From positions 1 to 64,000 of the forward strand of contig JALSSV010000021.1 of assembly GCA_026984045.1 (NCBI GenBank): a DNA stretch of 64,000 bases, in the 5' to 3' direction. This document shows, piece by piece, positions 4,065 to 41,283 of this stretch (the stretch's first letter is position 1; the number at the start of each line of letters is the position of its first letter). Both the position numbers and the translations under genes were made by a program. The DNA is from Chromatiales bacterium (GTDB lineage: Bacteria; Pseudomonadota; Gammaproteobacteria; UBA6429; Thiohalophilaceae). The notes beneath the pieces were generated by a model, which saw only the letters and a list, made by a program, of their open reading frames with translations, was not told where the DNA came from and searched no databases.

Positions 4065-4068
4065 AACC

Positions 4069-4298
4069 GCAGGCCGGCTCAGGCGCAGCGGATCCGGATA
4101 CACGACCGATGTATTTGTTCAGCGCAAGTACTGAGCCCTTGAGGCCGGGTGTGCCTTTCGTGACCGTCGGCCGCAGGGATGCGGCCGTCGAGCCTACAGG
4201 GATGTATCCACGGCGTGTCACGAAAGGCACACCCGGCCTCAAGGGCGGATCCGATGCAGACTAAATTGCCGGCTCCGCTGCGCCTGAGCCGGCCTGCG
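4069..4298. repeat. Nested giant palindrome, copy 1
   Basis: An outer 24-bp perfect stem (4069-4092 with 4274-4297) encloses an inner 30-bp perfect stem (4135-4164 with 4217-4246). The inner arm begins GCCCTTGAGG and ends TTTCGTGAC. The 52-base apical core contains its own hairpin CGGCCGC-agggat-GCGGCCG, then GAGCCTACAGGGATGTATCC. It lies between the convergent HDOD and SH3-protein genes. The core is nearly identical to copies at about 6062, 16700 and 41170, while the stems differ. Confidence 0.9.
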
Positions 4299-5988: not shown

Positions 5989-6282
5989 CGCAGTCCGGTT
6001 CAAGCACAGCGGCGCCGGCTTGTTATGCTGTGGGCTTTATCGTGTTCCGGGTGAGCACTGAGCCCTTGAGGCTGGGGAAACCTTTCGTGACCGTCGGCCG
6101 CAGGGACGATGTCCAGGACGGACAAGTGTCGCGTGAGGGCAGGATGCCCGAAGCGACTGCGGCCGTCGAGCCTACAGGGATGTATCCACGGCGTGTCACG
6201 AAAGGTTTCCCCAGCCTCAAGGGCGGATCCGATGCAGGTGCAGTGAGTTATACCGGCGCCGCTGTGCTTGAACCGGACTGCG
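5989..6282. repeat. Nested giant palindrome, copy 2 (longest)
   Basis: An outer 30-bp perfect stem (5989-6018 with 6253-6282) encloses an inner 30-bp perfect stem (6062-6091 with 6195-6224). Outer and inner arms differ in sequence from copy 1, yet each is exactly self-complementary. The core carries about 50 extra bases inserted at the tip of the CGGCCGC hairpin (about 6107-6158), while the hairpin arms and the GAGCCTACAGGGATGTATCC segment are preserved. It lies between the convergent HU and HAD genes. Confidence 0.9.
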
Positions 6283-16699: not shown

Positions 16700-16811
16700 G
16701 CCCTTGAGGCCGGGGAGGCGATTCGTGACCGTCGGCCGCAGGGATGCGGCCGTCGAGCCTACAGGGATGTATTCACGGCGTGTCACGAATCGCCTCCCCG
16801 GCCTCAAGGGC
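16700..16811. repeat. Giant palindrome, copy 3 (no outer stem)
   Basis: Perfect 30-bp stem: 16700-16729 pairs with 16782-16811. The arm begins GCCCTTGAGGCCGGGGAGGC and ends TTCGTGAC. The 52-base core matches copy 1 with only two or three changes (GATGTATTCAC instead of GATGTATCCAC). Lies in the 380-base gap between the PilZ gene at 16204-16590 and the YkgJ-type gene at 16971; the rest of that gap shows no gene. Confidence 0.9.
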
Positions 16812-31825: not shown

Positions 31826-32209
31826 CATACCCATCGGATTGGCGTTCCGCAAGCGTACCCCTTTTCCCGTCCGGCCAGGACGAACGCTGGCGCGTGGCGA
31901 AGGCGCCGTCCCTCGCCCGGATATGGCACCAGGGATTCGATGCTCAGGGCGAATCAGGTTGGAGGATCGCCAGATGCGTCCCGAAATCGTCCAGGCGCAA
32001 AACGTGACGCGCCAGTCAGGGTTCGGGGTGGATTGGGTTCGGAAAATCGCGATTCGGGTTCATCGAAGTCAGCCGCCTTGGCGCCATATCCAGGCTAAAC
32101 AAGTGTTCCGAATCCTCGGACACCTTAAGCTGAAGCAACAAGAACCAGACACGCCCTCAAGGGGGGCTTCATGCTTGTCACTGAGTGCAGGGGGATTCGG
32201 AACAGCTAT
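31826..32209. other. Intergenic region with one 12-bp inverted repeat
   Basis: About 380 bases without a supported gene. TGTTCCGAATCC (32104-32115) is exactly complementary to 32193-32204. Between them are weaker pairings (CTTAAGCTGAAGCAAC... with ...CTTCATGCTTGTCACTGAG) and the string CCCTCAAGGGG. It could form a 100-base structured transcript end for the convergent-side genes, or be a decayed member of the palindrome family. Confidence 0.5.
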
Positions 32210-32644
32210 TTAGCGGCGGGCGCGACCGACAGGGCGGATGCGGTACCAGATGGTCCAGATATAAAGCACGAAGGCCGCGGCCTGCGCCAGGCCGGCGGCG
32301 AGGATCAGCCAGCGCAGGGCGTCCAGGTTGGCGTAGCCGCGCAGCAATTCTCCGATGAAGCGGGCCAGGGTGCCGGTCAGGAGCAGACCATAGACGAAAT
32401 CGATTCGGGCCGGGCGGAAACGCGGATCGTCCTCCCGCGCGCGGGGAAAGATCCACAGGGCCACCCCCAGGATCATGAACATCACGAAGCCGACGAAGAT
32501 CACGTGCTTGTGGGCCGAGATCACGTAGGGCGGCGGCCAGACCCCATACAGCTCCCGCTGTACCAGCATGCTGAGGCCCAGCAGCAGGCCGAGGATCAGA
32601 AAGGCGAAGGCGGTCTTGATGAAACGCCGGACCTGCGCGTTCAT
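32210..32644 (-). CDS. Four-TM protein resembling part of heme-copper oxidase subunit I
   Basis: A 144-residue membrane protein with four hydrophobic segments. The stretch VISAHKHVIFVGFVMFMILG followed by VALWIFPR resembles the His-bearing helix of COX1/NorB subunits, in a protein far too short (about 145 versus 450-500) to be an oxidase subunit. It may bind heme. It lies four bases after a second small membrane protein gene on the same strand. Function unknown; I infer a respiratory role only from the helix similarity. Confidence 0.7.
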   Translation of the reverse strand: MNAQVRRFIKTAFAFLILGLLLGLSMLVQRELYGVWPPPYVISAHKHVIFVGFVMFMILGVALWIFPRAREDDPRFRPARIDFVYGLLLTGTLARFIGELLRGYANLDALRWLILAAGLAQAAAFVLYIWTIWYRIRPVGRARR

Positions 32645-41169: not shown

Positions 41170-41283
41170 GCCCAGGGGGTGGGGGGAGCGGTTTCGTGAC
41201 CGTCGGCCGCAGGGATGCGGCCGTCGAGCCTACAGGGACGTATTCACGGCGTGTCACGAAACCGCTCCCCCCACCCCCTGGGC
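41170..41283. repeat. Giant palindrome, copy 4 (most diverged stem)
   Basis: Perfect 31-bp stem: 41170-41200 pairs with 41253-41283. The arm begins GCCCAGGGGGTGGGGGGAGC and ends GGTTTCGTGAC; only the ends match the other copies. The 52-base core is again nearly identical (CAGGGATGCGGCCGTCGAGC, then CTACAGGGACGTATTCACGG). It lies 3' of the gene at 40584-41036 and upstream of sat. No outer stem found. Confidence 0.9.

Follow-up and report, generated by a model that had tools for sequence, protein, structure and literature searches.

The segment at positions 5,989 to 6,282 of the window (the window being the whole 64,000-nt stretch of DNA analyzed here) is copy 2 of a dispersed element in which a variable inner stem surrounds a conserved core, and it raises the question of what the additional stem at its outer ends represents. 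The first-pass annotation had described outer inverted repeats in copies 1 and 2 that are absent from copies 3 and 4, had found their arms related yet different between copies, and had read the outer and inner stems as two independent stems obeying the same rule. The relevant features are listed below.

4068 to 4298, + strand: copy 1 with REP-type outer arms (4068-4097/4269-4298)
4135 to 4246, + strand: copy 1 inner 30-bp variable stem around the conserved core (arms 4135-4164/4217-4246, 30 nt, 100% complementary)
5989 to 6018, + strand: copy 2 left outer arm, a degenerate GTAG-type REP unit
6253 to 6282, − strand: copy 2 right outer arm, the REP unit of the left arm inverted (30/30 complementary to the left arm)
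6062 to 6224, + strand: copy 2 inner 30-bp variable stem around a long core with a 51-nt insert (arms 6062-6091/6195-6224, 30 nt, 100% complementary)
16700 to 16811, + strand: copy 3, inner stem and core without outer stem (arms 16700-16729/16782-16811; core at 16761)
41170 to 41283, + strand: copy 4, inner stem and core without outer stem (arms 41170-41200/41253-41283; core at 41232)
32096 to 32212, − strand: core-deleted derivative bounded by terminal inverted repeats (TIRs), with the hairpin collapsed to GCCCCCCTTGAGGGC

The outer stem is real, but it consists merely of ordinary short repeats that face each other. In copy 2 the 30-nt arms are 100% complementary with no mismatch, and in copy 1 they are 97% complementary over 30 nt with one mismatch; the 24-25 bp reported earlier for copy 1 is the mismatch-free portion. 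Copies 3 and 4 contain the inner stem only. Between copies 1 and 2, the related outer arms differ by five changes made in both arms, which preserve pairing, and by one unpaired difference in copy 1. RNA folding gave z-scores of −14.8 for copy 1 and −13.8 for copy 2, with no shuffle folding equally well, and related outer stems occur elsewhere in the genome (for example, at L020), so chance pairing confined to copies 1 and 2 can be eliminated and the earlier argument that a mechanism is required is supported. Over 58 copies, the outer flanks fit their own partners better than the partners of other copies (0 of 2000 permutations), an outcome that TIRs held in common within subfamilies could produce on their own.

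Copies 1 and 2 have outer arms that are variants of CGTAGGCCGGCTCAAGCGCAGCGGAGCCGG, each pair being two REP units in inverted orientation. A search of the genome with this pattern returned 19 sites within three mismatches, and the majority of the other REP sites lie outside any element, many of them as inverted pairs ∼53 bp apart. Taken together, the GTAG-type tag (which reads GCAG in copies 1 and 2), the palindromic unit, the dispersed occurrence, and the inverted pairing identify the arms as GTAG-REP dimers. Inverted pairs are the usual arrangement of REP dimers, and inserted DNA between the partners has been reported (PMC3733652). Locus L020 is arranged like copies 1 and 2, being REP-bounded with 20/26 positions paired; the same REP adjoins the element at L095, which lies at a contig end, and L021 and L038 carry inverted pairs of a second REP type. 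Copy 2 (L006) and L020 align over 276 bp at 83% identity, which indicates that the REP-bounded form itself has spread. We also considered a CGTC-tagged REP identity for hairpin 1 of the core, which begins CGTC, and rejected it on stem and tail features.

Most other copies have a terminal inverted repeat, CTAAATNNNNGTTCCRAAT, in the position of the outer arms. This TIR is of the type CTAAAT..GTTCCRAAT, its ends are nearly always C-TA...TA-G, and homology between TIR-bounded units stops at the TIRs. With a one-mismatch TIR pattern, which admits a few chance matches, the 58 copies divide into 26 with TIR-like ends on both sides, 14 with one such side, 5 with REPs on both sides, 1 with a REP on one side, and 12 with neither, the class to which copies 3 and 4 belong. 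Among the places that we read, the TIR pattern search of the genome led to element copies and core-less units. Three TIR pairs in the genome lack the core: the one at 32096-32212 in the window, where the collapse to GCCCCCCTTGAGGGC is as expected for deletion of a palindrome, and two further units at C43:51698-51819 and C72:14684-14798. REP pairs without a core exist as well. The outer stem can thus be separated from the inner one, and the two modules are not strictly inherited together.

The inner stem behaves differently. It is ∼30 bp long in nearly all copies in the genome, with a GAC/GTC start at the core, and its arms match within a copy while differing between copies (mean self score of 28.5 vs 12.8 for cross-copy arms). 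Mismatches in such arms are informative because a transition in a double helix yields G.T and A.C equally, whereas selection on one folded strand leaves G.T (G.U in RNA). We counted mismatches in elements retrieved through the core and not through the arms, so the search favors neither type. In 202 elements, the inner arms contain 196 G.U against 42 A.C mismatches (p = 6e-25) and 100 A.G against 13 C.T, and counted per element, 94 lean toward G.U and 16 toward A.C (p = 1e-14); related elements are not fully independent, which makes these p-values nominal. The host genome alone gives a weak signal from small numbers (G.U 15, A.C 7). In the 57 elements whose outer stem could be scored, the outer arms contain 51 G.U and 53 A.C mismatches, a spectrum that differs from that of the inner arms (Fisher p = 1.3e-9). 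The two stems do not, then, obey the same rule, contrary to the first-pass annotation. As the bias is confined to the inner arms, selection appears to have acted on the inner stem as a single folded + strand, presumably RNA, and the outer stems have the look of DNA ends, with no sign of single-strand selection. This contrast offers a simple means, needing sequence alone, of distinguishing RNA-selected stems from inverted repeats at the DNA level.

An alignment of 46 sequences supports the inner stem and two hairpins in the core. Of its cells, 96.2% are paired, two-sided changes occur in 22/35 pairs, and the covariation score is 0.448 vs 0.109 in shuffles; RNAalifold yields the same structure unprompted. 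Both hairpins present a six-nt loop, ANGGAN, closed by C-G, giving the pattern C-A-N-G-G-A-N-G. Among 53 strong matches from a broad genome set, GGA is present in 53/53 in both loops and the closing C and G in 51-53 of 53, while variation over these 53 loci from many genomes falls at the two N positions. Hairpin 1, which the search pattern does not touch, is nearly invariant in 140 elements (A 139, G 138, G 139, A 140; GGA 98.6-100%). The SELEX consensus for CsrA is RUACARGGAUGU, with ACA and GGA fully conserved and mostly six-nt loops, and the repeats of CsrB are CAGGA(U/A/C)G (PMC7652899). The hairpin loops match the CsrA/RsmE rule CANGGANG, with (A/U)CANGGANG(U/A) or CAGGA(U/A/C)G found in the loops, and the candidate sites in the window are as follows.

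4174 to 4181, + strand: copy 1 CsrA-like site 1, CAGGGATG, hexaloop of hairpin 1
4197 to 4204, + strand: copy 1 CsrA-like site 2, (CTA)CAGGGATG(T)
6101 to 6108, + strand: copy 2 CsrA-like site, CAGGGACG
6114 to 6120, + strand: copy 2 CsrB-type repeat CAGGACG in a GTCC/GGAC hairpin of the 51-nt insert
6140 to 6146, + strand: copy 2 CsrB-type repeat CAGGATG in a GGGC/GCCC hairpin of the 51-nt insert
6175 to 6182, + strand: copy 2 CsrA-like site 2, (CTA)CAGGGATG(T)
16739 to 16746 and 16762 to 16769, + strand: copy 3 CsrA-like sites
41210 to 41217 and 41233 to 41240, + strand: copy 4 CsrA-like sites

The 51-nt insert is shared by copy 2 and seven other copies in the host genome, and its hairpins (GUCC-AGGAC-GGAC, or with GUGC/GCAC, and GGGC-AGGAU-GCCC) amount to two CsrB-type CAGGA(U/C)G loops. 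Counting against a CsrA reading, the predicted fold of copies 1 and 2 places the second site in an alternative hairpin, GGA-UGUA-UCC. Longer variants occur in the wider family. L195, from Microbulbifer halophilus, has several more GGA hairpin loops in its center (AGGGA, ATGGA, AGGA), like a small CsrB. In L186 and L253, inserts of 119-125 nt between arm and core replace hairpin 1 and have CGCCCCGCCCTTATTCACAGTA...GAATAAGGGCGGGG in common, and a hairpin-1-like stem-loop recurs in inverted orientation within the arm-core inserts of L230 and L252 (CATCCCTG / CGTCCATG sense).

The family is large and widely distributed. The conserved 24-mer ACAGGGAYGTATNNACGGCGTGTC occurs 59 times within three mismatches in the 2.98-Mb host genome, in which the reversed 24-mer has 0 matches. 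The covariance model detects the family in 70/369 sampled genomes of the class Gammaproteobacteria and in 31/398 genomes of a phylum-wide sample, every one of them from the same class; named carriers include Marinobacter, Microbulbifer, Stenotrophomonas, Halopseudomonas, Rheinheimera, and Lysobacter. A DNA similarity search of E. coli genomes, plasmids, and phages gave no match. The host genome has two csrA genes. We found csrA in 46/47 carriers tested, with no match in the draft genome of carrier G231, and in 28/33 non-carriers, a distribution that is consistent with a CsrA reading but barely separates carriers from non-carriers.

Copy positions differ between species. The intergenic region of G001, a congener, that is orthologous to the site of copy 1 lacks the element, while the flanking genes are kept at ∼76-82% identity. 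L054 is likewise without a counterpart in G001; its place there holds no element, but the intergenic DNA aligns uncleanly and offers no clean empty site. Among the G001 copies examined, none was found to be orthologous to a copy in the host genome. The C-TA...TA-G ends suggest duplication of a TA target, and we regard transposition with TA duplication as an evenly balanced possibility. A search of the genome did not find a transposase for the element, nor a cognate RAYT flanked by the REP of the outer arms. The only Y1 transposase in the genome, a RAYT-like protein (L106, G000:C98:16243-16563), is flanked by several GTAGGAGCGGCGCCCTCGCCGCGA REPs, a third REP type that differs from the outer arms.

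Several explanations without a trans-acting RNA deserve consideration. The element could be a purely DNA-level mobile palindrome whose inner arms are kept complementary by template switching or arm-to-arm conversion at replication hairpins, with no function as RNA. Perfect arms of different sequence, outer arms kept without wobble bias, core deletions resembling those known for palindromes, and random orientation relative to genes all fit such a palindrome; however, double-strand homogenization predicts G.T equal to A.C, as in the outer arms (51:53), and not the 196:42 of the inner arms with their A.G excess (100 vs 13 C.T), and it would not lead one to expect invariant GGA loops on compensated stems. 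We consider it improbable. The chances of a second explanation are slim too, though a shade better: the + strand might act as single-stranded DNA, its hairpins recognized during lagging-strand replication by an HUH (RAYT/IS200-like) transposase, as REPs are. Folded single-stranded DNA of one strand would also tolerate G.T better than A.C, a caveat to the RNA reading, and copies 1 and 2 are flanked by REP units in a genome with one Y1 transposase. That transposase, however, is flanked by a different REP family, the TA-ended TIRs point to an enzyme of the classical DDE type and not HUH, and the loops fit the CsrA consensus position by position, the two N positions included.

The element might instead act in cis on neighboring mRNAs, as a 3′ UTR stabilizer, an attenuator, or a bidirectional terminator. 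Its copies are intergenic, copies 1 and 2 lie between convergent genes, and the hairpins are very stable. With genes called by a model trained on recognizable genes, the orientations around the copies are ++ 19, −− 17, +− 12, and −+ 6, with no sense bias. This sense-orientation test gives no support for a 3′ UTR role, as sense and antisense are equal in tandem neighborhoods (19:17); the lack of bias argues against a mainly cis-acting role and fits a sponge or a function at the level of the element. No U-tract follows the stem, inspection by eye revealed no obvious promoter or intrinsic terminator for the element, and the HU gene has its own terminator-like hairpin, behind which copy 2 sits. 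A cis-acting role is accordingly unlikely in our view. The first gene of the window is surrounded by copies of another dispersed repeat, CTCTGCGCCCTCTGCGTTCCTTCC, some of them direct and some inverted (13-63, 1133-1168, and 1289-1339).

The reading that we prefer is that the element is probably a mobile, MITE-like unit, bounded by TIRs or REPs, that spreads a CsrA-binding RNA module, and it seems to be kept because of its RNA. Binding of CsrA, as judged from sequence and structure, is the part that we hold to be quite likely. The payload would be the long variable stem and the pair of CANGGANG-looped hairpins that it presents, the GGA loops numbering as many as four in the long copies; transcribed from the + strand, the RNA would bind host CsrA/RsmA dimers. 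The inner arms would vary freely because only their pairing matters, and the likeness of the outer arms would come from their being two inverted copies of a single terminal repeat. The outer stem would be a separate DNA-level module that marks the ends of the unit. It takes one of two forms: TIRs ending in TA, or the inverted REP pair that encloses the core in copies 1 and 2 and a small number of relatives. The copies together may act as a distributed CsrA trap, although a net titration of CsrA falls somewhat short of an even chance. Still more tentative is the full picture of a transposable element with a CsrA-binding RNA as conserved cargo, which, at dozens of copies per genome in many Gammaproteobacteria, might serve as a sponge setting the level of free CsrA, the stem being a stable handle and the copy number a dial. 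If the + strand RNA binds CsrA, many Gammaproteobacteria would have the set-point of a global regulator tied to a mobile repeat.

The element resembles several known systems in part. It shares inverted GTAG-type REP units with REP dimers, BIMEs, and REPINs through the outer arms of copies 1 and 2, but its units enclose an element of 171 to 234 nt, where the free pairs in this genome usually have 20-25 nt. MITEs such as ERIC, Correia, and RUP are short, non-coding, TIR-bounded, and intergenic, occur in many copies with TA ends, and have insert-bearing and internally deleted forms. The element has all of these features, and it differs from these MITEs in its hypervariable self-complementary inner stem and its conserved, predicted RNA-binding core. 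Like the CsrB/CsrC and RsmX/Y/Z sRNAs, it bears several hairpins whose GGA loops follow CAGGA(U/A/C)G or ACANGGANGU; unlike them, it has from two to four sites, set on a long variable stem, and is present as dozens of scattered copies that end in TIRs or REPs, and it has no Rfam match to the CsrB/CsrC/RsmX/Y/Z families.

The closest relative that we identified is Ysr224 (RF02770), which is among the most prevalent bacterial sRNA families in annotations (PMC9029176) and is multi-copy in Yersinia ruckeri (PMC12112432). The window has no match in Rfam at the gathering threshold. The Ysr224 covariance model nevertheless gives 48 matches at E ≤ 1 in the host genome, located at element copies (best 6.6e-8), most of them spanning model positions 1-107, that is, homologous over the whole model on the opposite strand; all of these matches fall far short of the gathering score of 70 bits, the best in the host genome reaching 41.0 and copy 1 reaching 30.6. 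The element is thus a distant, opposite-strand relative of Ysr224, homologous to it but not a member by the curated threshold, as judged by this model. In the open-licence literature we found no link of CsrA to Ysr224 or to dispersed repeats and no report of Ysr224 mobility. The two have a conserved core sequence in common and are both multi-copy, but the annotated strand of Ysr224 is the other one, on which the GGA loops appear as UCC. This discrepancy in strand is the chief difficulty for the CsrA reading; in the sampled genomes, the wobble bias favors the strand that carries GGA. If the + strand RNA does bind CsrA, Ysr224 and its relatives, a highly abundant sRNA-like annotation, would gain a testable function.
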